This document shows positions 23,106-63,700 of a stretch of DNA of 64,000 nt, in pieces. Source of the DNA: Terebella lapidaria (Eukaryota; Annelida; Polychaeta; Terebellida; Terebellidae); NCBI GenBank assembly GCA_949152475.1, contig OX424567.1, forward strand, positions 19,865,402 through 19,929,401, written 5' to 3'. Under the pieces are notes generated by a model. The model worked only from the letters and a program-made list of their open reading frames with translations. It did no database searches and was not told the origin of the DNA. A program made the position numbers and the translations under genes. Every line of letters starts with the position of its first letter. The stretch's first letter is position 1.

Positions 23106-23329
23106 CGTACCAAACACAGTACATGCACTCCACATTGCTGGCTTTCCTCCTGGCCCCTTTGAGTCCCTACACGACCTGCCCCACCATCTACCGTCCACCG
23201 GATACAATCCACGGGTATCGCCATTCATGTCGCCAAACCATTCTTCATGTTCCCATCAACTCCTTTATGTACCAGACCTGTCAAGTAGTATATTCTCCTA
23301 CATATTTCTGCCTTACATGCACTCATCCT

Positions 23330-29300: not shown

Positions 29301-32300
29301 CCTCCGTGTCCACGCCCTCTACTTCATGTACTCGCCCTGTCCCTTCGTGTCCACGCCCTCTACTGCATGTACTCGCCCTGTCCCTTCGTGTCCACGCCCT
29401 CTACTACCCTGTCACTCCGTGTCCACGCCCTCTACTACATGTACTCGCCCTGTTTCTTCGTGTCCAGCCTTCTATTACATGTACTCGCCCTGTCCCTCCG
29501 TGTCCACGCCTCTACTACATGTACTCCCCCTGTCCCTCCGTGTCCACGCCTCTACTACATGTACTCGCCCTGTCCCTCCATGTCCCGCCCTCTACTACAT
29601 GTACTCGCCCTGTCCCTCCGTGTCCACGCCCTCTACTACATGTACTCGCCCTGTCCCTCCGTGTCAACGCCCTCTACTGCATGTACTCGCCCTGTCCCTT
29701 CGTGTCCATGCCCTCTACTGCATGTACTCGCCCTGTCCCTTCGTGTCCACGCCCTATACTACCCTGTCCCTCCGTGTCCACGCCCTCTACTACATGTAAT
29801 CGCCCTGTCCCTTCGTGTCCACGCCCTCTACTACATGTACTTGCCCTGTCTCTTCGTGTCCATGCCCTCTACTACATGTACTCGCCCTGTCCCTTCGTGT
29901 CCACGCCCTCTACTACATGTACTCGCTCTGTCCCTCCGTGTCCACGCCCTCTACTACATGTACTCGCCCTGTCTCTTCGTGTGCACGCCTACTACTACAT
30001 GTACTCGCCCTGTCCCTCTGTGTCCACGCCCTCTACTACATGTACTCGCTCTGTCCCTCCGTGTCCACGCCCTCTACTACATGTACTCGCCCTGTCGCTC
30101 CATGTCCACGCCCTCTACTACATGTACTCGCCCTGTCCCTCTGTGTCCACGCCCTCTACTACATGTACTCACCCTGTCCCTTCGTGTCCACGCCCTCTAC
30201 TACATGTACTCGCCCTCTCCCTCCGTGTCCATGCCCTCTACTACATGTACTTGCCCTGTCCCTCCGTGTCCACGCCCTCTACTACATGTACTGGCCCTGT
30301 CCCTCCGTGTCCACGCCCTATACTACATGTACCCGCCTTATCCCTCCGTGTCCACGCCCTCTACTACATGTACTCGCCCTGTCCCTTCGTGTCCACGCCC
30401 TCTACTACATGTACTCGCCTTATCCCTCCGTGTCCACGCCCTCTACTACATGTACTCGCTCTGTCCCTCCGTGTCCACGCCCTCTACTACATGTACTCAC
30501 TCTGTCCCTTCGTGTCCAGCCTTCTACTACATGTACTCGCCCTGTCCCTTCGTATCCACGCCCTCTACTACATGTACTCGCCCTGTCCCTCCGTGTCCAC
30601 GCCTCTACTACATGTACTCGCCCTGTCCCTCCGTGTCCACACCCTCTACTACATGTACTCGCCCTGTCCCTCTGTGTCCACGCCCTCTACTACATGTACT
30701 CGCTCTGTCCCTCCGTGTCCACGCCCTCTACTACATGTACTCGCTCTGTCCCTCCGTGTCCACGCCCTCTACTACATGTACTCGCCCTGTCCCTGCGTGT
30801 CCATGCCCTCTACTACATGTACTCGCCCTGTCCCTTCGTGTGCACGCCCTCTACTACATGTACTCGCCCTGTCCCTCCGTGTCCACGCCCTTTACTACAT
30901 GTACTTGCTCTGTCCCTCCGTGTCCACGCCCTCTACTACATGTACTCGCCCTGTCCCTCCATGTCCCGCCCTCTAACACATGTACTCGCCCTGTCCCTCC
31001 GTGTCCACGCCCTCTACTACATGTACTCGCCCTGTCCCTCCGTGTCCACGCCCCCTACTACATGTACTCGCCCTGTCCCTGCGTGTCCATGCCCTCTACT
31101 ACATGTACTCGCCCTGTCCCTTCGTGTGCACGCCCTCTACTACATGTACTCGCCCTGTCCCTCCGTGTCCACGCCCTCTACTACATGTACTTGCTCTGTC
31201 CCTCCGTGTGCACGCCCTCTACTACATATACACACCCTGTCCTTTCGTGTCCATGCTCTGTACTACATGAACTCGCCCTGTCTCTCAGTGTCCACGCCCT
31301 CTACTACATGTACTTGCCCTGTCCCTTCGTGTCCACGACCTCTACTACATGTACTCGCCCTGTCCCTTCGTGTCCACACCCTCTACTACATGTACTCGCT
31401 CTGTCCCTCCATGTCCACGCCTCTACTACATGTACTCGCCCTGTCCCTCCGTGTCCACACCCTCTACTACATGTACTCGCCCTGTCCCTCTGTGTCCACG
31501 CCCTCTACTACATGTACTCGCTCTGTCCCTCCGTGTCCACGCCCTCTACTACATGTACTCGCTCTGTCCCTCCGTGTCCACGCCCTCTACTACATGTACT
31601 CGCCCTGTCCCTGCGTGTCCATGCCCTCTACTACATGTACTCGCCCTGTCCCTTCGTGTGCACGCCCTCTACTACATGTACTCGCCCTGTCCCTCCGTGT
31701 CCACGCCCTTTACTACATGTACTTGCTCTGTCCCTCCGTGTCCACGCCCTCTACTACATGTACTCGCCCTGTCCCTCCATGTCCCGCCCTCTAATACATG
31801 TACTCGCCCTGTCCCTCCGTGTCCACGCCCTCTACTACATGTACTCGCCCTGTCCCTCCGTGTCCACGCCCCCTACTACATGTACTCGCCCTGTCCCTGC
31901 GTGTCCATGCCCTCTACTACATGTACTCGCCCTGTCCCTTCGTGTGCACGCCCTCTACTACATGTACTCGCCCTGTCCCTCCGTGTCCACGCCCTCTACT
32001 ACATGTACTTGCTCTGTCCCTCCGTGTGCACGCCCTCTACTACATATACACACCCTGTCCTTTCGTGTCCACGCTCTGTACTACATGAACTCGCCCTGTC
32101 CCTCAGTGTCCACGCCCTCTACTACATGTACTTGCCCTGTCCCTTCGTGTCCACGACCTCTACTACATGTACTCGCCCTGTCCCTTCGTGTCCACACCCT
32201 CTACTACATGTACTCGCTCTGTCCCTCCAAGTCCACGCCCTCTACTACATGTACTCACTCTGTCCCTTCGTGTCCAGCCTTCTACTACATGTACTCGCCC

Positions 32301-33520
32301 TGTCCCTTCGTGTCCACGCCCTCTACTACATGTACTCGCCCTGTCCCTCCGTGTCCACTCCCTCTACTACATGTACTCGCTCTGTCCCTCCGTGTCCACG
32401 CCCTCTACTACATGTACTCGCCCTGTCCCTCCGTGTCCACGCCCTCTACTTCATGTACTCGCCCTGTCCCTTCGTGTCCACGCCCTCTACTGCATGTACT
32501 CGCCCTGTCCCTTCGTGTCCACGCCCTCTACTACCCTGTCACTCCGTGTCCACGCCCTCTACTACATGTACTCGCCCTGTTTCGTCGTGTCCAGCCTTCT
32601 ACTACATGTACTCGCCCTGTCCCTCCGTGTCCACGCCTCTACTACATGTACTCGCCCTGTCCCTTCGTGTCCAAGTCCTCTACTACATGTACTCGCCCTG
32701 TCCCTTCGTGTCCACGCCCTCTACTACATGTACTCACCCTGTCCCTCCGTGTCCACGCCCTCTACTACATGCACTCGCCCTGTCCCTCCGTGTCCATGCC
32801 CTCTACTACATGTACTGGCTCTGTCCCTCCGTGTCCACGCCCTCTACTACATGTACTCGCCCTGTCCCTTCGTGTCCACGCCCTCTACTACATGTACTCG
32901 CCCTGTCCCTCCATGTCCCGCCCTCTACTACATGTACTCGCCCTGTCCCTCCGTGTCCACGCCCTCTACTACATGTACTCGCCCTGTCCCTCCATGTCCC
33001 GCCCTCTACTACATGTACTCGCCCTGTCCCTCCGTGTCCACGCCCTCTACTACATGTACTCGCCCTGTCCCTCCGTGTCAACGCCCTCTACTGCATGTAC
33101 TCGCCCTGTCCCTTCGTGTCCATGCCCTCTACTACATGTACTTGCCCTGTCTCTTCGTGTCCACGCCCTCTACTACATGTACTCGCCCTGTACCTTCGTG
33201 TCCACGCCCTCTACTACATGTACTCGCTCTGTCCCTCCGTGTCCACGCCCTCTACTACATGTACTCGCCCTGTCGCTCCATGTCCACGCCCTCTACTACA
33301 TGTACTCGCCCTGTCCCTCCGTGTCCACGCCCTCTACTACATGTACTCGCTCTGTCCCTTCGTGTCCACGCCCTCTACTACATGTACTCGCCCTGTCCCT
33401 CCGTGTCCACGCCCTCTACTACATGTACTTGCCCTGTCCCTCCGTGTCCACGCCCTCTACTACATGTACTGGCCCTGTCCCTCCGTGTCCACGCCCTATA
33501 CTACATGTACCCGACCGGTT
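23330..33520. repeat. Giant minisatellite, 41-bp unit, ~230-250 copies, stop-free on the + strand
   Basis: The unit starts CTGTCCCTCCGTGTCCACGC and ends CTCTACTACATGTACTCGCC. Three zones are visible: divergent copies with CCCCCACATGCACTCGCC (23.3-23.7 kb), copies with GTTCCTGCCC and TACATATACCCACC (24.0-25.65 kb), and copies with GTCCACGCCC and TACATGTACTCGCC (25.65-33.5 kb). Higher-order copies are offset by about 739 bp (27.87/28.61 kb) and 818 bp (30.96/31.78 kb). Because 41 is not a multiple of 3 and no forward frame contains a stop, all three + frames read a shared 41-residue cycle, giving frames up to 2,011 codons. There is no gene evidence; the ORFs follow from the unit. Confidence 0.95.
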
Positions 33521-36413: not shown

Positions 36414-36423
36414 CTGTGTGGTT

Positions 36424-39155
36424 GGTCTATCCGGGGTCTGATGGCTCGCCAATACAAATAGTCCCATTAGTAATGGGGTTGGTCTATCAGGGGTCTGACG
36501 GCTCGTCAATACAAATAGTCCCATTAGTAGTGGGGTTGGTCTATCAGGGGCCTGACGGCTCGTCAATACAAATAGTCCCATTAGTAGTGGGGTTGGTCTA
36601 TCAGGGGCCTGACGGCTCGTCAATACAAATAGTCCCATTAGTAGTGGGGTTGGTCTATCAGGGGCCTGACGGCTCGTCAATACAAATAGTCCCATTAGTA
36701 GTGGGGTTGGTCTATCAGGGGCCTGACGGCTCGTCAATACAAATAGTCCCATTAGTAGTGGGGTTGGTCTATCAGGGGCCTGACGGCTCGTCAATACAAA
36801 TAGGCCCATTAGTAGTGGGGTTGGTCTATCAGGGGCCTGACGGCTCGTCAATACAAATAGGCCCATTAGTAGTGGGGTTGGTCTATCAGGGGTCTGACGG
36901 CTCGTCAATACAAATAGTCCCATTAGTAGTGGGGTTGGTCTATCAGGGGTCTGACGGCTCGTCAATACAAATAGTCCCATTAGTAGTGGGGTTGGTCTAT
37001 CAGGGGTCTGACGGCTCGCCAATACAAATAGTCCCATTAGTAATGGGGTTGGTCTATCAGGGGTCTGACGGCTCGTCAATGCAAATAGTCCCATTAGTAG
37101 TGGGGTTGGTCTATCAGGGGCCTGACGGCTCGTCAATACAAATAGTCCCATTAGTAGTGGGGTTGGTCTATCAGGGGCCTGACGGCTCGTCAATACAAAT
37201 AGTCCCATTAGTAGTGGGGTTGGTCTATCAGGGGCCTGACGGCTCGTCAATACAAATAGTCCCATTAGTAGTGGGGTTGGTCTATCAGGGGCCTGACGGC
37301 TCGTCAATACAAATAGTCCCATTAGTAGTGGGGTTGGTCTATCAGGGGCCTGACGGCTCGTCAATACAAATAGTCCCATTAGTAGTGGGGTTGGTCTATC
37401 AGGGGCCTGACGGCTCGTCAATACAAATAGGCCCATTAGTAGTGGGGTTGGTCTATCAGGGGTCTGACGGCTCGTCAATACAAATAGTCCCATTAGTAGT
37501 GGGGTTGGTCTATCAGGGGTCTGACGGCTCGTCAATACAAATAGTCCCATTAGTAGTGGGGTTGGTCTATCAGGGGTCTGACGGCTCGTCAATACAAATA
37601 GTCCCATTAGTAATGGGGTTGGTCTATCAGGGGTCTGACGGCTCGTCAATGCAAATAGTCCCATTAGTAGTGGGGTTGGTCTATCAGGGGCCTGACGGCT
37701 CGTCAATACAAATAGTCCCATTAGTAGTGGGGTTGGTCTATCAGGGGTCTGACGGCTCGCCAATACAAATAGTCCCATTAGGAGTGGGGTTGGTCTATCA
37801 GGGGTCTGACGGCTCGTCAATGCAAATAGTCCCATTAGTAGTGGGGTTGGTCTATCAGGGGCCTGACGGCTCATCAATACAAATAGTCCCATTAGTAGTG
37901 GGGTTGGTCTATCAGGGGTCTGATGGCTCGTCAATACAAATAGTCCCATTACTAGTGGGGTTGGTCTATCAGGGGTCTGACGGCTCGCCAATACAAATAG
38001 TCCCATTAGTAGTGGCGTTGGTCTATCAGGGGTCTGACGGCTGGTCAATACAAATAGTCCTATTAGTAGTGGGGTTGGTCTATCAGGGGTCTGACGGCTC
38101 GTCAATACAAATAGTCCCATTAGTAGTGGGGTCGGTCTATCAGGGGTCTGACGGCTCGTCAATACAAATAGTCCCATTAGTAGTGGGGTTGGTCTATCAG
38201 GGGTCTGACGGCTCGTCAATACAAACAGTCCCATTAGTAGTGGGGTCGGTCTATCAGGGGTCTGACGGCTCGTCAATACAAATAGTCCCATTAGTAGTGG
38301 GGTCGGTCTATCAGGGGTCTGACGGCTCGTCAATACAAAGAGTCCCATTAGTAGTGGGGTTGGTCTATCAGGGGTCTGACGGCTCGTCAATACAAATAGT
38401 CCCATTAGTAGTGGGGTCGGTCTATCAGGGGTCTGACGGCTCGTCAATACAAATAGTCCCATTAGTAGTGGGGTTGGTCTATCAGGGGTCTGACGGCTCG
38501 TCAATACAAATAGTCCCATTAGTAGTGGGGTCGGTCTATCAGGGGTCTGACGGCTCGTCAATACAAAGAGTCCCATTAGTAGTGGGGTTGGTCTATCAGG
38601 GGTCTGACGGCTCGTCAATACAAATAGTCCCATTAGTAGTGGGGTTGGTCTATCAGGGGTCTGACGGCTCGTCAATACAAATAGTCCCATTAGTAGTGGG
38701 GTCGGTCTATCAGGGGTCTGACGGCTGGTCAATACAAATAGTCCCATTAGTAGTGGGGTTGGTCTATCAGGGGTCTGACGGCTCGTCAATACAAATAGTC
38801 CCATTAGTAGTGGGGTCGGTCTATCAGGGGTCTGACGGCTCGTCAATACAAATAGTCCCATTAGTAGTGGGGTTGGTCTATCAGGGGTCTGACGGCTCGT
38901 CAATACAAATAGTCCCATTAGTAGTGGGGTCGGTCTATCAGGGGTCTGACGGCTCGTCAATACAAATAGTCCCATTAGTAGTGGGGTCGGTCTATCAGGG
39001 GTCTGACGGCTCGTCAATACAAAGAGTCCCATTAGTAGTGGGGTTGGTCTATCAGGGGTCTGACGGCTCGTCAATACAAATAGTCCCATCAGTAGTGGGG
39101 TTGGTCTATCAGGGGTCTGACGGCTCGTCAATACAAATAGTCCCATTAGTATTGG
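36424..39155. repeat. 63-bp minisatellite, ~43 copies, open on both strands
   Basis: The unit is GGGGTTGGTCTATCAGGGG, then CCTGACGGCTCGTCAATACA, then AATAGTCCCATTAGTAGT (with C/T, A/G and other variants). The period is 63 bp = 21 codons with no indels, so a 933-codon + frame and a 991-codon - frame both run through. Variants (GGCC/GGTC, CAATAC/CAATGC, AGTCCC/GGCCC) recur in blocks, pointing to higher-order amplification of several units. The array ends 7-10 bp before the acceptor of the 36,413 exon, so its last copy supplies that intron's 3' end. Confidence 0.95.
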
Positions 39156-44984: not shown

Positions 44985-46611
44985 ATAAATTAACGGTATT
45001 TCCCGTTTTTTTCCCTGTTTTTTTCTTCAATTCACACTAAGATTATACACTTGAGTAATCACAAACGAGGGGATAGCAATTTTTCCCGCAGCCGCTTCAC
45101 TCCTAGGAGTAGGGCCTGCACGAGTAAAAAAAATGCACCCGGATACCCGTACAATCGCATACATGAAAACCTGACCCGACTTAGGTACCCATGATCATGG
45201 GTTTATATACTGTATATATGTTCTGAGAAGTGTTTTCGAAAGAAACTTGCTAAAACTGGCTTGTGTTTGACAGAAATTAAGTTACCAGGTAATGAAAGTG
45301 TAGAAAGTGACCAGTTGGGATACCAACTCATCTCAGCCTAGGTAAGGTTAAAGTAACGATAGAAAACTAATAAATAATAGTGTCTGTCTGTGCTCATGCC
45401 CGTTCACAGAGTTCGGGTTGCTCATTCTTGACCCGGATCGGATGTTAAGTTGTTAACCAGACCCGTGTCGGACGGGACAAGGAGGGGGCGTGGAGCTGGC
45501 TGGACGGACTGCTTTTTAGGGGCAGCACAAGTACTCGTCAACGAGTCAAGTCACAGCAAGGATCGAGTTTTTTATTGATAACCGAGTACTCGGGGAAGCA
45601 ATTTCAGTAATAATATCACGAAATGTGCCCAAAACTGTGACAAAACGTTGAGAAAAGATCGAAATCTAAGTTGCTTTGACATTGTTTCGAATAGGAAATC
45701 ACTTACGCAATGATAGTTGGACTCTAGACATGACATCAGAAGCGTGCTTTAGCGAGTGCCCAATTAACTGAATACAGTAGTCAGTAGTCATTAGTCAACT
45801 GACTGTTATTGTCTTATTGATGATCTATTTTAATTTTTTTTGCCATGGTAATCCAGAGTTGGTACTTTGATACTAGTACTCGGTTATGAGTTGAGTCACA
45901 ACACCCGAGTACTTGAGTTACAAAATTTGGCCTAACTGTCGAATCTAGCGGGCAAATATGTTCCCCGTGTTTAACAATACGAAACATACTGTAAGTGCAT
46001 TTGATTTCGCAAGTATTAATATTAATTTTCGCGTTTTTCAAATGTGGATTTTTTCGTGAGGATTTAATTTCGCGGGTTTACGTGACAAAGGACCGTCACT
46101 TCCATGAACATACATGTACAGGAATGTTTCATTTCCTGAATTTGACATTTACTTATGCCAACAAGGATATAATGGCCAATGTGTCATAAACATGATAAAA
46201 ATATAGTCCAATGCCCAGGGAGAGGGCTATTGGTTATGGATATTTGTGCATGGAGTGTGGTAAAATGTAAGCCACTTAAATTTTTTGATGGTTTTCATTT
46301 CATGGTCTTTAAACATGTATGTCTTCAAAATATGTAAAATTACATGGTCTCTGCTTGCCGCCAGACTCCAGTCCTAGCACAAAAGGACAGGCGCGGTAGA
46401 ACACGCGTTTGGAATACAGTAGGTCAGCCGTTGTAGCGATTTGAGCCGAGGTCATTGCCTACGCAGTCCAAAGTGCGGGTGGAGACATATTTGCTGGGAT
46501 TAATTTTCGCGATTTTGTTCTGCTCGCGAAAATCGCGAACTAAATACGACTCTACTCGAGAAAAATGTGTGCTTTTACAGTATATTGAGTGCGTTATGAT
46601 CTCCCTACGAG
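44985..46611. other. Non-coding stretch, no gene recognised
   Basis: No splice-bounded open frame or family motif was found. It includes ACTCG/GAGTACTCGG-rich phrases (45.5-45.95 kb) and a GATTTAATTTCGCG-type phrase repeated near 46,060 and 46,500 that looks like old repeat. Confidence 0.45.
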
Positions 46612-46987
46612 CTGTCCGTCCCTAAGTCGCCACACCCCAAAAGTCGCCATGTGGGTTATATTTTTGTTACAAACAGTGCAATCTTTGGCAAATCCTAAAT
46701 GAAAGTTCCACTAATATGGATGGAATGTGATGTGTAGTCACAATTACCATGATTACGATTGTGACAAAAATGATCGCAGTAGATGCACCATGGCGACTTT
46801 GGGGATGCGGCGACTTAGGGACAGACAGCTCATATGCTACAATCAGACAATTGTACCTACCTACCTCTCAAGATACATCCATATAAAGTGGAAGTATCAT
46901 TTATGATTTGTGAAAGATTGTACTGTTTGTAACAAAAATATAACCCTCATGGCGACTATTGGGGTGTGGCGACTTAGGGACGGACAG
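46612..46987. mobile_element. Foldback/MITE element, ~376 bp
   Basis: CTGTCCGTCCCTAAGTCGCC at the left end and its reverse complement at the right end open inverted arms of ~110 bp. The arms share GGTTATATTTTTGTTACAAA and CATATTAGTGG/ATATGGATG-type inner sequence. A third copy of the end (GCGGCGACTTAGGGACAGAC) lies inside at ~46,807-46,826, so the element has two nested right ends. No coding capacity. Confidence 0.75.
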
Positions 46988-46999
46988 TTTGTAGCCAGT

Positions 47000-47564: not shown

Positions 47565-47870
47565 ACCAACTGAGGACCGGGGTGTGTGTCCTCAGTTGGA
47601 CATACGGTCCTCACTTGGTTGGTGTGTTTTCTAACGTTGGTCCCCAGTTGGCAGGTTATACAAACACACACATATATATACATACACACACATATATATA
47701 TACATACATACACATACACATACATATACATATATATATATACATATATACATATACATACATATATACACATATACATATACATATACACATACATACA
47801 TACACATACACACATATATACACATACATACATACACACACATGCATATATACATACACGTACATATATA
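47565..47870. repeat. CAACTGAGGAC block followed by TATACA/CATACA microsatellite
   Basis: Alternating GTCCTCAGTTGG, GGTCCTCACTTGG and CCCCAGTTGGCAGGTTATAC precede ~210 bp of (TA/CA) repeats. The pairing of this phrase with a CA/TA tract is the mirror image of 21,975-22,110. Confidence 0.75.
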
Positions 47871-48235
47871 GATCACTTAAACTTAATGATAAGTATGGCA
47901 TTTAAGAAATAACGTCAAATTAGTAGTTACATTGTTTGCAAAAAGTATTTTCACAAGTTACATTATTAGAGTACAAGTCTATAAAATGATGCCTAAGCAG
48001 GGTGCTAAATCTCTTCCTGTTAATTTCGTCTTTAAATTTGACTGGGAAATTATTCCAAACATTGGGGATACTATAATACACATTCGATTTGGACCAGTTA
48101 GTTATGGCGGACAGGCTGGCTGATCACTTATCTCACGCATGCCTGAGCAGGGCGTGTATACTGGATTGACTGAGAGGCAGATACTAGTGTTATGCTGGAC
48201 GAGCTGGCTCATCACTTGTCTAACGTATGACTGAG
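47764..48235. repeat. Upstream 472-bp direct repeat bracketing the Penelope-like element
   Basis: Identical, as far as I can read, to 52,622-53,093 (constant offset 4,858). It consists of microsatellite, ~240 bp of otherwise single sequence, and the start of the ~87-bp minisatellite. To the left the microsatellite continues; to the right of the second copy the minisatellite continues, so the repeated DNA appears to be pre-existing host sequence. Confidence 0.93.
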
Positions 48236-48243
48236 AGACTTCC

Positions 48244-48281
48244 GCACTTGACAAAGGATTCAACTCCGAAACCGGTCGTGC
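48244..48281 (+). ncRNA. Hammerhead-ribozyme-like motif (type I, degenerate core)
   Basis: Stem I: GCAC 48,244-48,247 with GTGC 48,278-48,281. Core TTGACAA 48,248-48,254, then a GGA/TCC stem II with loop TTCAAC. GAAA lies at 48,268-48,271, followed by a two-base-pair stem III and GTC ending at 48,277 (expected cleavage site). The canonical CTGATGA is replaced by TTGACAA, so C3 and G8 become U3 and A8, which could still pair. Hammerheads are known in Penelope-like elements; activity here is uncertain. Confidence 0.55.
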
Positions 48282-48513
48282 AACAGGCAGAGTACATTGT
48301 GAGTAACCGTTTTTGATATTGTTTTGTATTATTTTGTTTTGTTTTAGATCTGGTCAGATTATTGACCATATCTTTGCATTCAGGCTTCTTCAAACGTTTT
48401 GTTTCCATTTTATACAATTGTTTTTATTTTTATAATTTTATCCTTCGGTTTTATCATCCAAATCAAATTCGTTCTGGTTTTAATACTTTCAAAATTAATT
48501 GCTGAAACGTATC

Positions 48514-50235
48514 ATGGCTCTTTCCAAACCTCCTCACTTCCGTTCTTTTTACACTCTTCTTCAATGCTTTCACCATCTTTCACTAATGCTCCAGCAGTCT
48601 CAAGGCCAAGTCACCAGGGCTTTCAGTAAAAAACAACAACACCTGGATGACTTCATTAAACCTGCTTGTTCTGGTCCTCTGATCAAACAAAAAATCTCCA
48701 AAATAAATCAAAATTGGGTACAAAACGTGACCGAACAATTGGTGGAACACTACGAGAGCTCAATTCAAAACCTTTTGGCCCACATTTCCTCTTTAGGTTT
48801 ATCTGATTCGGACATTGCAAATTCGGTAGCTCTCGTCATTCAGCAGGCTAAATCTCATTTCGGCAAAAAACTTCAGGCTTCCACCATCCAGAAATTCAAA
48901 AGCTCCACTCTTCCAAATTCCCCTATTCCAAATTCTAACTCTCAATCCAAACCTCAGACTTGTGAGGTTAAAGGTCACAAACACCCACTTAGTAATTTCT
49001 TCCCATGTAATATATCCTATCGTGGTATGAGATTCCCTTGCCTTGAGCACATCTATCAGTATCACAAAGCCCGGTACCATGACTGTCAACACCTAGCCAA
49101 TCGGATCCTTAGGGCTCCCCATGCAGGAGTGGCTAAACGTTTGGCTAGTGAAATCCCTAGCCTGTCCCCATTCTGGCATAAAAGTAAAAATGGAATCATG
49201 CGTCAACTTCTCCAAGTTAAGTTTAATTCTTGCAAATTGTTCCGTGACACTCTGATGGGCCTACCTGAAGGGTGTCACATTGTCCATCCAGTTCCTGACA
49301 GCCACTGGGGTGTTAATCGTCATGGTCAAGGCTCTAACTTCTTTGGCCGCCTCCTAATGGACCTAAAACGTGCCAACTCTCCTACTAACAATCCTAAACC
49401 CTCTCGCTCTTCACCTCCATTTTCAAATAACACCCTCCCTAAAACCCTTCCCTCTGTGTCCACTTCTAACCGCTTCCAACTCCTGGACACTCTCTCTAAT
49501 CCTCCTTGCCTCTCATCATCTGATGATTGGCCACCTCTCTCTCGCTCTTCTCCTGATAACCGCCTTAGTGCCACGCCCAAACGGCGTCCGCTCTCTCCTT
49601 CTTCTCCTGAACTCTCACCCTCCTCTCTACCTAAAGGCAAACGCTCTCGCTTTGCCTCTCCTAAAAACTCTCCTAACACCACTTTCCATGTCTCTCCTTC
49701 CACTATCAGAGGGCCCAAAACTCTTTGGGCCCTTCCTAGACTAACCTCCTCCACTGTCGTCCTCGGCTCTTCTAACCTCTCTCGCATCACCAAATCCCCC
49801 GTCAGTGATATCCAAGTTGTGTCTTATCCTGGAGCTTTGTTCAACCATCTCAGAATGATGTTCACGGCCTGTAAAAAATCATTTGATGCCCCCAAAAACT
49901 TAATCTTAAGTGTTGGCCTGAACAATCGAAGCTCCAAACCAAGTGTTACCTCAATTCCAGAGCTGAGGAATATGCTCAGCAGTGCTTTCCGAATCTTCCC
50001 CCACTCCAAAATTCTTATTCCAAAAATTAACTACTCAGACAATCTTCCGTCTGTAGAGAAACGCAACTTGGATATGATTAACAGGGCTTTGGATGACATG
50101 AGTTCACGTTTCAGCAATCTCACAGTTGTTAAACAATTGGATCCAATCAGGTTCTCTACACAGCCAGATAACATTCATTGGACTGAACAAACGGCCAATG
50201 AAATGTTGAAATGCTGGCTCAGTCATTTAAACTAA
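48514..50235 (+). CDS. Penelope-like element ORF1: NADAR domain plus SGNH-hydrolase-like domain
   Basis: Start chosen at ATG 48,514 (ATCATGG context); an in-frame ATG at 48,499 gives 578 codons, numbered here. Residues 1-150 look helical. Residues ~158-291 match the NADAR fold (YbiA/DUF1768): LSNFFPC 164-170, LEH 182-184, W226, VKF 240-242, SHWG 268-271 and GSNFFGRLLM 278-287. A Ser/Pro-rich basic linker follows (KRRP, KGKRSR, possible nuclear signals). Residues ~418-578 look like an SGNH hydrolase: LGSSN 422-426 (nucleophile block), YPGA 443-446, GLNN 473-476, DNIH 557-560. NADAR enzymes are known to cleave ADP-ribose/NAD-type N-glycosidic bonds, some from nucleic acid; SGNH domains occur in ORF1 of several LINEs. 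The role in this element is not known; a nucleic-acid-binding or host-defence-countering role is inference. Confidence 0.82.
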   Translation: MALSKPPHFRSFYTLLQCFHHLSLMLQQSQGQVTRAFSKKQQHLDDFIKPACSGPLIKQKISKINQNWVQNVTEQLVEHYESSIQNLLAHISSLGLSDSDIANSVALVIQQAKSHFGKKLQASTIQKFKSSTLPNSPIPNSNSQSKPQTCEVKGHKHPLSNFFPCNISYRGMRFPCLEHIYQYHKARYHDCQHLANRILRAPHAGVAKRLASEIPSLSPFWHKSKNGIMRQLLQVKFNSCKLFRDTLMGLPEGCHIVHPVPDSHWGVNRHGQGSNFFGRLLMDLKRANSPTNNPKPSRSSPPFSNNTLPKTLPSVSTSNRFQLLDTLSNPPCLSSSDDWPPLSRSSPDNRLSATPKRRPLSPSSPELSPSSLPKGKRSRFASPKNSPNTTFHVSPSTIRGPKTLWALPRLTSSTVVLGSSNLSRITKSPVSDIQVVSYPGALFNHLRMMFTACKKSFDAPKNLILSVGLNNRSSKPSVTSIPELRNMLSSAFRIFPHSKILIPKINYSDNLPSVEKRNLDMINRALDDMSSRFSNLTVVKQLDPIRFSTQPDNIHWTEQTANEMLKCWLSHLN

Positions 50236-52514
50236 ATCATTCTGAGAGTCCACCGAACTCCAGTACGACTAATAATGTTGTGAACCTTTCCAAATTTACA
50301 CTTTCGGACACACAAATCGCTCTTCTAAATCGTGGTTTGACTTTTGTTCCCACACCCAAAATAACATTGGATCCAATTGAACAAGCTGTGCAAGATTTTG
50401 GTAGAAAACTCAAACTTCAAAATTATTTTTCTCACCGTCCAAATTCATTTACAAATAGATCAAAATTCACTCCAAAATCTACCTGGACTCCACCCAATTC
50501 CATGATTGACAAGCCTGTTTTAGATTGCATTTCGGCAATATCTAAAGAAATTGAAAATTTGAAAATTCAACCAGAAACCAAAAACCTAACGAAAATGGAA
50601 TATAAAACTATAAAGGATTTACAAAATAACGTAGACTTGGTAATCAAAAAAGCAGATAAAGGTAGTGCAGTCGTAATTATGGATAGGCAAAATTATATTA
50701 ATGAAGGCCTTCGTCAATTATACAATCCAGCTCATTACCGAGAAATTGACACTCCTCTTTACTTAGAAAATTCAGAAAAAATAACAAAAATTTTAAAAGG
50801 ATTACGCAGTTGTGGATGCCTTTCTGGAAAAGTATTCCAATTTCTTTTACCACCAGAACGCCCTCGTCAAAGAAGATTTTATATGCTACCTAAAATTCAT
50901 AAACCCAAAGACTCCTGGCCAATTCCAAATGTAATGCCTCCAGGGCGCCCAATTGTTTCGGACTGCAGCAGTGAATCTGAAAAAGTAGCTATGTATATTG
51001 ATTCATATATAAAAGATCAAGCAAATAAGCATCCGTCATATATCAAAAACACGTATGACTTTTTAGATAAAGTTAGAGGGCTTGAACTAGATCCAAATTC
51101 TTTACTAATCACTTTAGATGTTGAAAGTATGTATACTAATATAAATCATGAAGAAGGTATCCAAGCAATTAAAAATGCATTCCCGACTCTGAAAAACAAT
51201 GAACTATTCAAAGGTATAATAGAATTATTGGAAATTTCACTTAAATGTAATGACTTTGAATTTGACGGTAAGACATTCCTACAAGTTTCAGGCACAGCCA
51301 TGGGTCAGAAATATGCACCTCATTATGCAGATATTTATATGGCTGAATTTGAAAAGCAAGCTTTACAAAAGTGTCCATTCAAACCAGATTGCTATTATAG
51401 GTATTTAGATGACATTTTCCTCATTTGGCCACACGGCACTTCCAAATTTAATCAGTTTCTCGAAATTTTCAATTCTCATAGGGCATCAATCAAGTTCAAA
51501 GCTGAAATTAGTACTGATTCAGTTAATTTTCTGGATACTACTTTGTTCAGGAGCAAAGAAAACACATTAGAAGCAAAAGTTTTCTTCAAACCAACGGATA
51601 CTCATCAGTTGCTGCATAAGCTCTCTTTTCATCCAAAGCACACTTATAAAGGACTAATCAAGTCCCAAGTTTTTCGATTTTTCCAAATTTGCTCCTATCC
51701 AGATGATGTTGAATTAGCTTGCCAAACATTATTCAAGGCACTTTCGAAACGTAACTATTCAAAACGTTGGCTTCGCAAAATCAAGAATGAAACATTGAGA
51801 ATTCTAAACAGTGAGGAAAGGCTAGGTGCTGATTTTCAGTTGCCCACTTCCAGCTCATCTGGCTCAAAACCTTGTAATTCTAGACTATGTCAAACATGTC
51901 ATTTAGTTCCAAATTGTCAAAATTTCTCAGGATCAGTTTTTGAACAAACCTACTCAATCAACTCAGCTTTGGATTGCAACTCAGAAAATATAATTTATCT
52001 ATACACTTGTAAGCTTTGCGAAAAACAATATGTAGGTGAAACCGGTAAATCACTCAAATTCAGAAACAATCGTCACCGTGCTGCAATAACTAGCTGCAAT
52101 GAGGAAAATGCATTATACAGTCATCTATCTAAATTTCACAGCAAAACTGAATTTTCCATCGATTGTTTTTCTCTTTTACCAATTGAACAGGTTTCCGATC
52201 TTGGTGATGAACTTTTAAACAAACAATGGCGACTTGAAAGGGAATATTGTTGGATTGATACTTTAGGCACTTTCGAGCCTCATGGCCTCAACGTTCAAAA
52301 ATTTACAAAGTATGACCCTTTGAACAAAAGTAAAAATAAATTCGACCTGGTGTATATAGTACCCTTCTCAAAAACAGGTGCTCTTTCGGCCCAAATTGTT
52401 AAAAAACATATGAAACAACTCAACAAAAATACTGATGGTGATATTAAAATAGCAACAGCTTACAAGAAGCATCAAAACCTTAAAGAACTTTTAGTCAGAA
52501 GCAGACTTAAATAA
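50211..52514 (+). CDS. Penelope-like element ORF2: reverse transcriptase with GIY-YIG endonuclease
   Basis: 767 codons, overlapping the end of ORF1 by 25 nt in another frame. The N-terminus has the family phrase LLNRGLTFVPTP. RT motifs in order: KADKGSAVVIMD (~146-157), RRFYMLPKIHKP, GRPIVSDCSSES, catalytic LDVESMYTNI (D303), SGTAMGQKYAPHYAD (~359-373), YRYLDDIFLIW (YLDD 398-401) and NFLDTTLF. A Cys-containing linker (CQTCH...C) leads to the GIY-YIG domain: NIIYLYTC (593-600), KQYVGETG, LKFRNNRHR, and a distal REYCWI. By family knowledge it makes cDNA primed at a nick cut by the nuclease. The overlap suggests reinitiation or frameshifting for expression. All catalytic residues seen are intact. 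Confidence 0.95.
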   Translation: MLAQSFKLNHSESPPNSSTTNNVVNLSKFTLSDTQIALLNRGLTFVPTPKITLDPIEQAVQDFGRKLKLQNYFSHRPNSFTNRSKFTPKSTWTPPNSMIDKPVLDCISAISKEIENLKIQPETKNLTKMEYKTIKDLQNNVDLVIKKADKGSAVVIMDRQNYINEGLRQLYNPAHYREIDTPLYLENSEKITKILKGLRSCGCLSGKVFQFLLPPERPRQRRFYMLPKIHKPKDSWPIPNVMPPGRPIVSDCSSESEKVAMYIDSYIKDQANKHPSYIKNTYDFLDKVRGLELDPNSLLITLDVESMYTNINHEEGIQAIKNAFPTLKNNELFKGIIELLEISLKCNDFEFDGKTFLQVSGTAMGQKYAPHYADIYMAEFEKQALQKCPFKPDCYYRYLDDIFLIWPHGTSKFNQFLEIFNSHRASIKFKAEISTDSVNFLDTTLFRSKENTLEAKVFFKPTDTHQLLHKLSFHPKHTYKGLIKSQVFRFFQICSYPDDVELACQTLFKALSKRNYSKRWLRKIKNETLRILNSEERLGADFQLPTSSSSGSKPCNSRLCQTCHLVPNCQNFSGSVFEQTYSINSALDCNSENIIYLYTCKLCEKQYVGETGKSLKFRNNRHRAAITSCNEENALYSHLSKFHSKTEFSIDCFSLLPIEQVSDLGDELLNKQWRLEREYCWIDTLGTFEPHGLNVQKFTKYDPLNKSKNKFDLVYIVPFSKTGALSAQIVKKHMKQLNKNTDGDIKIATAYKKHQNLKELLVRSRLK

Positions 52515-52621
52515 TCCAACAAAATTTGTTCAATGTCGCTCATTGAATTTTTATTGCTGTTTTATGTTATGTGTTACTCTTACAATTATCTTGTGCCAGT
52601 GCATTTTTTATTCTCTCCAAA

Positions 52622-53093
52622 ATATACACATATACATATACATATACACATACATACATACACATACACACATATATACACATACATACATACACACACA
52701 TGCATATATACATACACGTACATATATAGATCACTTAAACTTAATGATAAGTATGGCATTTAAGAAATAACGTCAAATTAGTAGTTACATTGTTTGCAAA
52801 AAGTATTTTCACAAGTTACATTATTAGAGTACAAGTCTATAAAATGATGCCTAAGCAGGGTGCTAAATCTCTTCCTGTTAATTTCGTCTTTAAATTTGAC
52901 TGGGAAATTATTCCAAACATTGGGGATACTATAATACACATTCGATTTGGACCAGTTAGTTATGGCGGACAGGCTGGCTGATCACTTATCTCACGCATGC
53001 CTGAGCAGGGCGTGTATACTGGATTGACTGAGAGGCAGATACTAGTGTTATGCTGGACGAGCTGGCTCATCACTTGTCTAACGTATGACTGAG
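52622..53093. repeat. Downstream 472-bp direct repeat bracketing the Penelope-like element
   Basis: Second copy of 47,764-48,235; see that entry. The minisatellite that starts in its last ~125 bp continues to ~54,200. Confidence 0.93.
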
Positions 53094-54200
53094 CAAGGCT
53101 TATATACTGGATTGACTGAGAAGCAGATACTACTGTTATGCTGGACGAGCTGGCTCATCACTTGTCTAACGTATGACTGAGCAAGGCTTATATACTGGAT
53201 TGACTGAGGGGCAGATACTAGTGTTATGCTGGACAGGCTGGCTCATCACTTGCCTCATGCATGACTGAGCAGGGCGTGTATACTGGACTGACTAGTGTTA
53301 TGCTGGCTTGCATACTTAACTGAGCAATGCTTATATTCTGGACTGACTGAGAGGCGGAGACTAGTGGTATGTTGGTCAAGCTGGTGTATCACTTATATCA
53401 CGCATGACTGAGCAATGCTTATATTCTGGATTGACTGAGAGGCGGAGACTAGTGTTATGCTGGACAAACTGGCTTATCATTAGTCTAACGTATGACTGAG
53501 CAAGGCTTATATTCTGGACTGGCTGAGAGGCGGAGACTAGTGTTATGCTGGACAAACTGGCTTATCATTTGTCTAACGTATGACTGAGCAAGGCTTATAT
53601 TCTGGACTGGCTGAGAGGCGGAGACTGGTGTTATGCTGGACAAACTGGCTTATCATTTGTCTAACGTATGACTGAGCATGGCTTATATATTGGACTGACT
53701 GAGAGGCAGAGCCTAGTGTTATGCTGGACTTGTCTAACGCATGACTGAGCAGGGTATGTATACTGGACTGACTGGGAGGCAGAGCTTAGTGTTATGCTGG
53801 GCAGCCTGGCGTATCACTTGCTCACGCTTGACTGAGCATAGCTTGTACCCTGGACTGACTCGGAGGCAGAGCCTAGTGTTATGCTGGACAGTCTGGCTTA
53901 TCACTTGTCTCACGCATGACTGAGCAGGGCTTATATACTGGACTGGTTGACAGGGGGAGTTAGTGTTTTGCTGGACAAACTGGCTTATCATTTGTCTAAT
54001 GATGACTGAGCAAGGCTTATAGACTGGACTGACTGATAGGCAGAGCCTGGTGTTTTGCTGGACAGTCTGGCGTATCACTTGCTCACGCTTGACTGAGCAT
54101 AGCTTGTATCCTGGACTGACTCGGAGGCAGAGCCTAGTGTTATGCTGGGCAGCCTGGCTTATCACTTGTCTCAAGCATGACTGAACAAGGCATACATACC
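52966..54200. repeat. ~87-bp minisatellite, second array
   Basis: About 13 copies of the unit described at 19,125-21,540 (TGCTGGAC..CTGGCTTATCA, TAACGTATGACTGAGCAAGG, TATACTGGA..TGACTGAGAGGC). Units near 87-89 bp leave short frames on the minus strand (repeating SVSPVYKPCSV), regarded as chance. Confidence 0.85.
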
Positions 54201-54860: not shown

Positions 54861-55170
54861 CAGCATAACACTAGTCTCCACCTTAGTGATACTAGTAAGC
54901 CAGTCTGTCTACCACTACACTAGCTCCACCTCTCAGCCAGTCCAGTATAAAAGCCTTGCTCAGTCGAGTGTGCAAGCCAGCACACCACTAGGCTCTGCCT
55001 CTTAGTCATTCCAGTATACACACCTTGCTCAGTCATGCGTGAGACAAGGGATAAGCTAGCCTGCCCAGCATAACACTAGGCTCTGCCTCTCAGCCAGTCC
55101 AGAATATAAACCTTGCTCAGTCAAGCGTGCAAGCCAGCATAACACTAGTATCTACCTCTCAGCCAGTCCA
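54860..55170. repeat. ~87-bp minisatellite, inverted array
   Basis: Three to four units in reverse complement (AGCATAACACTAGGCTCTGC, CAGCCAGTCCAGTATA, GCCTTGCTCAGTC) relative to the arrays at 19-21.5 and 53-54.2 kb. A single forward unit follows at ~55,380-55,480. Confidence 0.8.
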
Positions 55171-55254
55171 AATGTAAGTGTGAAATAATACACTGTTACT
55201 GAGGCGATATTAGGGAAGCTTGTTAGGGACATTAACTTTTTTTACTTTTGAATT

Positions 55255-58351: not shown

Positions 58352-60792
58352 TTATTTTTTCTTGATCATTCCTTCCTCCCCTATCAACGTCAACAAGGTT
58401 TTCTTGTAGTCCCCGGAAGTGTCGTCCTGTAATGAACATAAAAAAGTGCACTGGGTTAGCATTCATTTCTTTTTATATTTCTGATGAATTCTCAGTACGA
58501 ACACAATCATTCCTTGATGAAATTCGTGGATGTAGAGATGATTATATTAGATGTTCTGAGCAAAAATATTCAAATTTTTTTAAGATGAATTAAATGTGCA
58601 AAATTCACAGACAATGTGCCTTATATATTTCTGGTTAGCTTATGGAGGTCTTTTTTATTGTTACAAACATACACCTTACATATTATATTGTATATTTTAA
58701 TAATTATAGTTTTTAAGAAACATATACTATTGCATTACAACATCAATATTTTCCCCCAAAACATATATTCTCTTTCATTACAAGAACCATACAAAAACAT
58801 AAACAAATTAGAATGAAACTAAAATACTGACAGCGATGAACTTTCCGAGGGGTTGTGAGTGTCTGGTCTGGAACTTCTCCTTGATTTGAACCATGTCCAC
58901 CTCACACCGTGTGATGACAGTCCGCACGAGGGAATCGTCCTTCGTGCCGAGTCCCTTCATGCTCTTGTACAGCGTGTCCGCGAAGTAGTTCTGGATGTTC
59001 CGGATCACGCCCACTGAGGAACAAGGAATAAATATAGTGTAGACCATGGTTGAGTTGCAATTTGAGTTTGAAAATTTCAGTATAATTGACTTTTTTTCCA
59101 AAGGGTTTTTCTCAAAGGATATTCAAAGTTCACTAAGCCTACAACTGAATTTTGGAAGAATCACTCACATTGTTTTCTGTATCTACTTGGGGTAGTGATG
59201 GAATGTATTTATTAATAATTGAGATATATGATCCAAAATCATTATGTAATTTACATGTATGTAGTACGTATATATACATACCAACAGTCAGCATGCTACG
59301 TTTAATATCTCCAGACATCTCAGACTTGATCGAGTCCTCAATTTCCTTGTTGGCGAGCTTTGCATATTCCTCAAACGTTGCTCTCAGCTGTGCAAAACTC
59401 CTACAAATATGGGAACCAAATTCCAATGCAATAAGCTTTCAATAATTTAAAATTAGATGAATGAAATGTTTATTCTTAAACAATGATAAGTTTTAAATAT
59501 TGTAATTTGACATCATAAAACTTTCAAGAACACCAACTGGGAATACTTGACCGACCTAGAACACAAAATCACGTTGAATCTTGACTCGTCCGTTCCGAAT
59601 TTCTTCTCGCCTGCTTCGAATAGGTCCTTTGCATCTTTCCGTGCCTTCCTGCGGTCGATGATGTTGCCCGTCGGACGGTTGGCTTGCAGCATAGAGATCA
59701 GTATTCGCCTGAAGTGACCGGACGTGTCCGACTTAATGTCGTCCTCCAAATTCTTGTTGTACACTTTGAGTGAGAGAAGAAATTCATCTTATTTCAAAAA
59801 TGATCCCATTGTATTTTTTACAACAAACAGGTTCTTTTCTCCCTATTGGTCAAAGTAAAATCGAAAATTTTCAGAACATGTATAGACCTTGGGATATGGT
59901 ATCGAAAATCATACTATTACACTGTACATGTATAAGTTTGAGGCATACAAAATCCGACATACAATTTTTGTACTTGGCGACAATGGCTTCCAGTTCCTCA
60001 TTACTCCTAGTACACAGGATCTCTATCAGACAATCTTCGTCAGTCCCGGCTCCCTACAGGGTAGAACACACACAAATGGTAATTTCAGTGTGTATTATCT
60101 TTATATCATGTATATACGATTCTCAAAGAAACAATAGCTTATGTTAATCGCTGTCAACAAGGAGAATGGTAACTCCACAATTGATGAAAATCAATAATGG
60201 TAAGCCATGTTTGTACTCTAAACTGTTTGAAAAAGATTTAACTACATGCAAAGGCACATTTTCAAAACATATATATTGAGCAAAAAATGTTCCACAAAGT
60301 TCCATGATGTATCAACCTTCATGGCTTTGTGAAGTTGCTCTGCGTCAAACTCTGTAGGCGTCATGCACATGGCAAGGATGGCGTTTCTGAAGTTTCCGCT
60401 GAGTTCCCCGTGAAGTTCTTTCTTGAGATCCTTGCCGATCGTCTCCCGATACGTCTTGACCAGCTGTAGGCGCTGCTCATTGGAACGGTGACACATCACG
60501 TTAATGATAGCTGCTTCATCCGTACCTAGGGAAAAATACAATCCATTGAATTACGGTGTATGCAAGCTGATTTATTAATCTATAGCTAATGACTATGATT
60601 TTGCGATGAAGGAAAGAGATACGGGCAAGAATAATTGAAACATTGGTCAGTGATATGTAAACATAGCAAGTTTCCAGCTTTATTGATTTTGATGCTAGAT
60701 CTGTGTTTACCTAGGCCTTTCATGGCCTTCAGAAGAACTTGGCAGTCCTGCTTCGGGTCGAATGGATCAGCTGGCAGAAGTGTAGGGTCTGC
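58352..60792 (-). other. Annexin core 2 (repeats 5-8)
   Basis: Starts [20 protein letters not shown], the usual entry to a first annexin repeat, and runs 321 residues to the stop. Exon lengths mirror core 1: 91 and 91 nt for repeat 2/6, 182 and 182 nt for repeat 4/8, and 209 nt here against 95+114 nt in core 1, so one intron was gained or lost. The 208/119 border is shifted 7 codons relative to 187/143. Repeat 8 has an extra Lys in its loop (GTKDD). Confidence 0.8.
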
Positions 60793-63700
60793 CTGATAAC
60801 AACAAAATTGTGACATCAGAAACAAAATAATATTTGAAATAATCAATGACAGAGATGTGAATTTTCTTGCAGAAGTGATATATACACACAAAAGTGATAC
60901 CCATAAGTAACAACAAGGTATGCCAGCCATTTCACACTTGTATACTCCTTGACATGTATATTTTGTTCATGGTTTTCCTTTCACTGAACCATTACCAGAC
61001 ATTTATCTCATTGAAAAATGACAATTTTGAAAACCAAGAATTGCACAAAATTAAATCAATCATAAACAAAGCCAAAACTGAACTCCTCAAACCCGGCCCC
61101 GGCTCTGCCCTCCCTACAACCTCTACACCAACCTCCACTTGTTCCTCTTCGACCTCCTCGAGTTCCGGTTCTCCCTCTGCCTCCTCGATATCGTCTGCGG
61201 TTGGAACCGGAGGCGCGCGCTCCCCAATCAACGCTAGCAACATCTCGCGGTAGTCTCCGGATGTGTCGTCCTGAAGGGGAGAGTCAGCGTCAAGTCAATA
61301 CCGGGTGCCAAGTACGAGTGAAATGTTCTCGTCAATGCTTCATTTTATTGAGTTATATTGATGGTGTTTATTTTAGACTGTTTTCAGGTTTAAAAACTTG
61401 AAAACATGTTTATCCAATGTGAACCCAATGTGTCACCTAAACCCAAGTGAAGCTGTAAACTGCAAGACCTGACTTCTAGCATGCAAGTCGTAGCCACGCA
61501 AGCAGGCTCGCAAAGATAAATTATTCTTCTTTTATATTATATATATTATTATTATTATATATATTATTACTATAACTGTTGAGAATAGACCTTGATCCAC
61601 TCGGCTAATGTCCCCTTGAACTGTTGCTGAAAAGCCTCCTTGATCTGGACCATGTCGATTTCACAGCGTGAAACGACGACCCGCACCATGGCTTGATCGT
61701 CAGTTCCCGCGCCTTTCATAGCCTTCTGCAGCTTGAGGGCAAAGTATCCAGGCTTGTTCCGAATCACTCGCACTGGCAGGAAAAAGACAATTTTTGGAGG
61801 TAAATTTCATTGAATTTGTATTCAGGCTTTAACAGTTTTTCACAACTGAAATCAAAATGAAGGTGAATACTACACAAGAAAAACGAATTATTATTAAATA
61901 TATCCATTCGATGAACTGACCGACTGCAAGGAGGCTGTTCTTGATGTCTCCAGAGAATTCTGACTTTATCGCCTCCTCGATGTCTCTCTTGGAAAGCTTT
62001 CCGTACTCTTCGAAAACAGCTCGCAAGTGAGCGAAACTTCGGCGCAGAATGATTTGGTTGAAACTGTTGAAATGATATGAACAAACATGCGAAAATGATA
62101 AATTAAGATACAGAAATGTATCGGAAATGTTTAATTAGCAGGATTCGTTCACAGGTATCCATGTCCCAAAAGAAACATAAGTTATAGATATGAGCCTGGC
62201 CACTGTACAATGAAAATGTAAAGTACTGGATTTGAACATGTTCATAAGTTTATTCTTCCATCTTATCCTGCAATTATAATTTCACTTTTATAACACATCT
62301 CGCCCTATTGTCCTTACGTTGACTCATCAGTGCCCCACTTCTTGCCCTCCCCAGCCTTATATAGATTCTTGGCGTCGTTCTCGGCCTCGGTTCGGTCAAA
62401 CTCGGGACTTTCATTCCTCTGCCCCTGGATCTGGTAGGTCAGCAGCTGTTTGAAGTCTCCCGATGTATCACTCTTGACGTCCTTCAACATGTCCTTGTCA
62501 TACACTGGCGGGGACGAAAAGGAACAATAAAACATCCAATAGTCTCAAAAAGACCCAATTCCTTGCTGCGAAATTAGGAACAGCAACTGAAAATGTTTTA
62601 ACTTGAAGTAAAACATTTTGAATTGATGTAGTGAACCATTTCTCAGAACACCCTGACTGCTTTTGTACAGATAAGTGTACACATATAGTTTTACAAGTCG
62701 TACGAGTAACTGTATGAACAATTTAGCTGGACAGATTAAAACGTACGTTTATAGTAAGCCTCCTTGATGGCCTTGATTTGTGCATTTGTTCTCGTACAGA
62801 GGATCTCAATCAGAGCATCCTCATCTGTTCCCAGACCCTAGAAGAAATCATGTAAGAAGCATGTAAACAAACAATCAAACCTACAGCTACATGCATTCAT
62901 ACCTTGACAGCATGTTTGACCTCGCAACAGTGACTCTGATATACTTTGATGATGATTTTGTCTTTAATACCTTGCATTTAACTGCAATATACCACTATAC
63001 ATGTACATGTAATTCAATGCTGTCTGAAGACAACAGTGTGTTTGACCTTGCAATACGGTAAGCGACTTTCACCCTGCCATACCCTGTAGTGCAACAATTT
63101 TGCACTGACTGACTACAGATCAACATTTCCGTACACATACTTTGACGGCACGTTTGACTTCAGTAGCGTCATAGACATCTGGGGGCAGACAGAGGGCCTT
63201 CAGCATCTCCTTGAAGTCAGAGCTTGTCTCACTGATCAGCTCCTCGCGCAGGTCCTATCAAGTATTCATAAGTTAAGTTGATATGTACACATACATGTAG
63301 TGGTGTCTCTGAAGGCTAGCTGGTGGATCCAGAATAGGCGCAAATTTACGTGTAAACACATATGATTTGCACTAATTATCGTCATATAAACCGATGACAA
63401 ATTCATCCTCACGGACCTCGGATCCAGCTCAAAAAGAATAGGGTTCTTCCACATATCATTTCTGACTTGTGGTGAAAATTTGACGAGGATCCGTCAAGGC
63501 AATCTAAAGTTATCGTCCGGAAACCAAAAGTGGCGGAAGAACAAAAAAAAACAAAAAAAACAAAAAACAAAAAAAATTCTGCTAAAACCATAAAGGCATT
63601 TCTGCCGAAATGCCTTAATTACTTCAATAACTATGTGCATGAATGTAGATTTAAAAAGCTATAGTATTTCAGACTGAGAGGAGAGTTCATCCATACTGTA

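Follow-up and report, generated by a model that had tools for sequence, protein, structure and literature searches.

A two-ORF Penelope-like element of Terebella lapidaria with a NADAR domain and an SGNH-like domain in ORF1

Results

A repeat-bounded retroelement with two open reading frames

We analyzed 64,000 nucleotides from the annelid Terebella lapidaria (contig OX424567.1, positions 19,865,402 to 19,929,401; hereafter the window), which contain a Penelope-like retroelement enclosed by two identical repeats. The element has two open reading frames (ORFs): ORF1 combines a NADAR domain with an SGNH-like domain, and ORF2 encodes a reverse transcriptase (RT) and a probable GIY-YIG endonuclease. 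The coordinates are listed in Table 1. Both ORFs are encoded on one strand; they use different frames, with an overlap of 25 nt, and the frame of ORF1 is open from position 48499. Among 1000 Markov-1 versions of the element body, the longest frame free of stops, taken over both strands, spanned 115 codons in the median case and 239 at most, compared with 573 and 767 codons observed. A leader of 278 nt precedes ORF1 and a tail of 107 nt follows ORF2 inside the repeat-bounded unit. ORF1 belongs to the element that carries ORF2 in this copy, and the strongest evidence for this is that both ORFs lie inside that one unit. A chance neighborhood of ORF1 and ORF2 was rejected for this copy on the same ground.

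An earlier reading of this DNA from its letters alone (the sequence-only reading) had placed ORF1 directly ahead of an intact ORF2 with RT and GIY-YIG domains. The overlap, the open frame and the RVT_1 match bear this out for the RT, and the catalytic motifs LDVESMY, GTAMG and YLDD are intact. For the endonuclease the claim stands less firmly. The GIY-YIG match (E 0.0021) reached 18.8 bits, compared with a Pfam cut-off of 22.6, and is placed C-terminal to the RT with its motifs in order. A PDB sequence search with ORF2 gave no match at E 0.01. The stretches KKADKG and KQYVGET of ORF2 resemble the Penelope-like group, and the ORF2 motifs are presumably of Penelope type. Overall, we are highly confident of the element class and of the domain identities. 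Relatives of ORF1 were sought in IMG/VR and GTDB genomes, and the NADAR piece, the SGNH piece, ORF2 and the RT piece were each searched singly in IMG/VR; none was confirmed in these non-animal collections, a result of little weight.

Table 1. Features of the Terebella lapidaria element and its flanks (positions in the window)
Feature	Position	Strand	Basis or remarks
Left copy of 472-bp perfect direct repeat	47764..48235	no strand	100% identity to 52622-53093
Element body, 4386 bp	48236..52621	+	exactly between both repeat copies
Hammerhead-like RNA motif, candidate	48244..48281	+	9th base of body onward; loosened descriptor
ORF1, 573 aa: N-terminal region, NADAR, Ser/Pro-rich linker, SGNH-like domain	48514..50235	+	from ATG
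NADAR domain, ORF1 residues 155-286	48976..49371	+	Pfam, structure model, fold matches, residues
Linker, ORF1 residues 291-405	49384..49728	+	41% Ser+Pro
SGNH-like domain, ORF1 residues 409-573	49738..50232	+	S420, G440, N470, D552, H555
ORF2, 767 aa: reverse transcriptase and probable GIY-YIG endonuclease	50211..52514	+	open frame
RVT_1 match, ORF2 residues 286-429	51066..51497	+	Pfam E 9.7e-12; LDVESMY, GTAMGQKYAP, YRYLDDIF
GIY-YIG match, ORF2 residues 594-685	51990..52265	+	Pfam, below cut-off
Right copy of 472-bp repeat, continuing into 88-bp minisatellite array	52622..53093	no strand	100% identity to 47764-48235

The NADAR domain of ORF1

NADAR motifs followed by SGNH motifs had been proposed for ORF1, and all ten were located in this order between residues 159 and 555. 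The NADAR part holds LSNFFPC (159-165), LEH (177-179), W221, VKF (235-237), SHWG (263-266) and GSNFFGRLLM (273-282). Pfam family PF08719 matched at E 2.2e-16 with 61 bits (cut-off 35.1), and the predicted model of the domain matched the YbiA fold in a fold search, so that the NADAR assignment is confirmed. Pieces of nidovirus and other RNA-virus polyproteins were also present among the 50 structural matches listed. A tblastn search of phages with ORF1 returned 214 records; the best 20 of these covered the NADAR part only.

The sequence-only reading had further proposed that the domain acts on ADP-ribose or NAD-type bonds, including those on nucleic acids. The catalytic residues of NADAR proteins are E43, K50 and E125 in the P. 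nicotianae enzyme and E88, K95 and D171 in E. coli C7 NADAR (PMC11543638). The third of them is Glu in proteins of the YbiA type, Asp in DarT1-linked NADARs and His in those of phages. K95 is essential in the C7 protein, and its D171A and D171N variants are without efficient activity (PMC11543638). E178 and K185 of ORF1 are retained and match E43 and K50, which supports part of the proposal. The third residue does not: ORF1 254-261 (CHIVHPVP) contains neither Glu nor Asp. Counting back from the shared D262 places Val257 at the Glu position with His258 adjacent, and one alignment places Ile256 there; the register is uncertain. This position is Glu in six phage proteins and in YbiA; among 70 NADARs from IMG/VR it is Glu in 61 and His in 4. 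ORF1 keeps 12 of the 14 columns that are uniform in these 70 viral proteins (an Asn is lost to His258 and a Leu to Phe277), a count flattered by the retrieval of the 70 with patterns holding the E..K or D..WG motifs. Where the P. nicotianae enzyme has G78 and R79, ORF1 has Ala and Ser, as counted on the alignment with chain numbers assumed to be shifted by two from those of the paper. The missing acid, the bias in the conservation count and the Ala-Ser pair all weigh against the reading of the element that we favor below.

The domain could be catalytically dead and kept for binding, either as an ADP-ribose reader or as a structural module that binds RNA or the ribonucleoprotein (RNP). Besides the lack of an acid at a place where viral NADARs mostly have Glu, the loss of efficient activity upon substitution of the equivalent Asp in C7 NADAR (PMC11543638) and the retained phosphate-contacting Lys agree with this. 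However, the working acid of C7 (D171) is not the residue that aligns, since the aligning Glu (E173) is dispensable (PMC11543638), so the position can shift. Furthermore, His255 and His258 lie near the third-acid position, and given the uncertain register a His might serve as the third residue. Phage gp30.3 NADARs carry a His at the third catalytic place, and the phage NADAR tested there was found active (PMC11125620). Given that activity, altered catalysis is possible in ORF1, as is loss of catalysis. We consider a dead domain somewhat less likely than not. The missing acid makes us lean to binding or altered chemistry. That the domain has any part in binding or removing ADP-ribose seems to us an even chance, and an active nucleic-acid de-ADP-ribosylase is unlikely.

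Another N-glycosidic substrate may be considered in place of ADP-ribosylated nucleic acid, such as a free ADP-ribose derivative, NAD-capped RNA or a metabolite of the riboflavin pathway. The best NCBIfam model was indeed TIGR02464, a riboflavin-intermediate N-glycosidase (E 7.3e-18), but its 65.3 bits remain below the model cut-off of 73.7. The preferred substrates of viral NADARs might be ADP-ribose derivatives in soluble form or by-products that arise in RNA processing (PMC9503650), whereas for eukaryotic RNA viruses the same paper favors macromolecular targets. Moreover, a metabolic role has no evident benefit to a retroelement. We regard a substrate of this kind as doubtful.

The SGNH-like domain of ORF1

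The second half of the motif set consists of GSSN (418-421), YPGA (438-441), GLNN (468-471) and DNIH (552-555). These include the invariant Ser, Gly, Asn and His of the four SGNH blocks, together with D552. In the predicted model, which has low-confidence stretches, GSSN follows the first strand, GLNN follows the second and DNIH precedes the last helix. Fold matches of this low-confidence model were mostly SGNH/GDSL proteins among the 50 matches listed. No Pfam family matched above its cut-off (Lipase_GDSL_2, E 0.081), and by sequence the structure 4c1b compared with the domain at E 0.48. Several measures of the model weigh against this reading of the domain. It was predicted from one sequence with a mean local confidence (pLDDT) of 56.9 and a global score (pTM) of 0.54, pLDDT fell below 50 at GSSN, DNIH and part of GLNN, and Foldseek TM-scores were about 0.5 or lower with a root mean square deviation near 12 Å. 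The SGNH-type domain proposed earlier is supported by its motif blocks and by the fold matches of a low-confidence model and not by a profile match; the overall architecture of NADAR, SGNH-like domain and RT with GIY-YIG in one element holds.

Boundaries and flanking repeats

The 472-bp repeat is composed of a microsatellite followed by an 88-bp minisatellite. A microsatellite array (47657-47858) crosses the outer edge of the left copy and a tandem array (52959-53293) that of the right copy. The last 135 bp of the left repeat (48101-48235) are 97.0% identical to a satellite at 20452-20586. Since satellite DNA occurs in the window apart from the element and arrays cross the outer edges, we take the repeats to be a long target-site duplication. 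On this reading the identity of the flanking copies suggests a recent insertion and a young, structurally intact element. Because both copies are identical, tandem-repeat analysis of the joined flanks was uninformative.

A perfect duplication of 472 bp exceeds, to our knowledge, the lengths described for retroelements, which would rather fit element-derived terminal repeats (pLTRs). Terminal repeats are carried by non-telomeric Penelope-like elements (PMC6431247). The 88-bp satellite of the repeat is, however, also present at about 19-21 kb and at 54.9-55.2 kb of the window, apart from the element, and the arrays run across both outer edges. Terminal repeats made by the element are therefore disfavored and appear quite improbable.

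No further copy of the element body of at least 100 bp was found by blastn in the window, and tblastn at E 0.01 with ORF1 and ORF2 returned self matches only. That the element is known from one copy leaves room for ORF1 being a captured host or foreign frame rather than a functional component of the family, which is very improbable given that ORF1 fills the space from the leader to the overlap with ORF2, that it runs without a stop inside the repeat-bounded unit, and that NADAR in ORF1 of oyster Tx1 long interspersed nuclear elements (LINEs) is on record (PMC12477816).

A candidate hammerhead-like motif and other features of the window

A candidate hammerhead-like RNA motif lies near the start of the body, from its 9th base. 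Hammerhead motifs and element-derived terminal repeats are common in Penelope-like elements but do not define the group. A descriptor allowing one extra base matched once in 64 kb on both strands (mean 0.033 in 30 simulated sequences), but it was written after the motif had been seen and support is weak. A stricter descriptor gave 0 matches in the window, and the Rfam hammerhead search gave none. The motif has one extra A before helix II, and U and A stand at the position of the C3-G8 core pair of the hammerhead. Neither the string in IMG/VR nor a looser form in GTDB was found.

An AC/AT microsatellite adjoins the 3' end of the element. The 88-bp minisatellite occupies at least three places (19200-21520, 52959-54199 and, on the minus strand, 54896-55178), one of them inverted. 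A C-rich tandem repeat with a 41-bp unit and a GC skew near -0.5 extends over about 10 kb (23314-33510), where long open frames are probably repeat artefacts. A 57-bp tandem repeat follows at 36416-39155 (about 48 copies, 97% matches); more than 900 codons are open there on both strands, which the divisibility of 57 by 3 probably explains. The inverted repeat at 46605-46994, with arms of about 118 bp that are 90% identical, could be a small hairpin element. A probable annexin exon was seen at 60589-60966 on the minus strand, where residues 62-92 match annexin VI at E 7.5e-6. Together with the satellites, this exon agrees with an animal source of the DNA. A Pfam search at E 0.1 with five further open frames in the window, the annexin-like frame included, gave no match.

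Discussion

We slightly favor the view that this is a young, intact two-ORF Penelope-like element whose ORF1 protein (ORF1p), with its SGNH-like domain and an ADP-ribose-handling NADAR, accompanies the element RNP. ORF1p would be translated from the same RNA as ORF2, and ORF2 perhaps by re-initiation at the overlap. Within the RNP the SGNH-like domain may tether the particle to membranes or cut a lipid or acetyl ester, as has been proposed for zebrafish ZfL2-1 ORF1p. The NADAR domain may bind, and perhaps remove, ADP-ribose set by host ADP-ribosyltransferases on the nucleic acid or RNP of the element. Alternatively, it might bind free ADP-ribose derivatives, by analogy with proposals for invertebrate RNA viruses with the same fold. 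The domain could in this scheme counteract ADP-ribosylation by the host, a role suggested for RNA viruses as well, with the substrate and the host target as presumed parts. A far-reaching version is that an endonuclease-bearing Penelope-like element encodes a de-ADP-ribosylase of nucleic acids in fusion with an esterase that acts on membranes, in order to undo a host ADP-ribosylation defense against retroelement RNA or cDNA, with the histidines beside the lost glutamate in catalysis. We consider this version improbable. The roles of eukaryotic NADARs are described as unclear (PMC11125620), and a NADAR in a Penelope-like element makes one such role testable.

Comparison with known systems

The architecture had been put forward as probably undescribed, which may hold for the combination but does not hold for its parts. 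No report of a NADAR-SGNH pairing in a Penelope-like element was found in the literature on NADAR domains or on Penelope-like ORF1, each consulted separately and not by a joint search. NADAR is known from the Pol of one of four Ectocarpus Gypsy lineages, a retroelement with this domain as is the element here, and a YbiA-family NADAR lies in ORF1 of several Crassostrea (Magallana) gigas Tx1 LINE families in Repbase (PMC12477816). The Tx1 families resemble our element in having NADAR in ORF1 of a non-LTR-type retroelement (LTR, long terminal repeat). They differ from it in being Tx1 LINEs and not elements with an RT and GIY-YIG, and the main text of PMC12477816 does not mention an SGNH domain or esterase.

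SGNH esterases occur in ORF1 of CR1, RTEX and Penelope-like elements, with membrane targeting as the favored role (PMC3905857). Our element appears to share with these proteins and with ZfL2-1 (4c1b) a predicted SGNH-like fold with catalytic residues in ORF1. ZfL2-1, in contrast, joins a coiled coil to the esterase, and the available text of PMC3905857 mentions no NADAR. GDSL ORFs are also found in Athena and Terminons (PMC5408684, PMC6431247), in which a Penelope-like RT is likewise accompanied by an accessory ORF for a GDSL hydrolase. These elements are giant, endonuclease-deficient and telomeric, unlike ours, and the word NADAR is absent from PMC5408684. Until recently, Penelope-like elements were held to have one ORF with an endonuclease or two without it (PMC6431247), whereas two ORFs with a probable endonuclease are present here. 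The fusion of NADAR with an SGNH-like domain fits a swapping of ORF1 modules among retroelement classes.

Outside retroelements, nidoviruses, hepe-like viruses and picornaviruses of invertebrates carry NADAR (PMC9503650). These positive-strand RNA viruses differ from our element in their RNA-dependent RNA polymerase polyproteins, and resemble it as RNA-based replicators that encode NADAR alongside a polymerase. To the LTR element (Ectocarpus Gypsy Pol), the LINE (oyster Tx1 ORF1) and the invertebrate RNA viruses with NADAR domains, a Penelope-like element is now added. That RNA-based replicators of unrelated kinds took up the domain more than once hints that they are under a common pressure, for which host ADP-ribosylation is the leading candidate.
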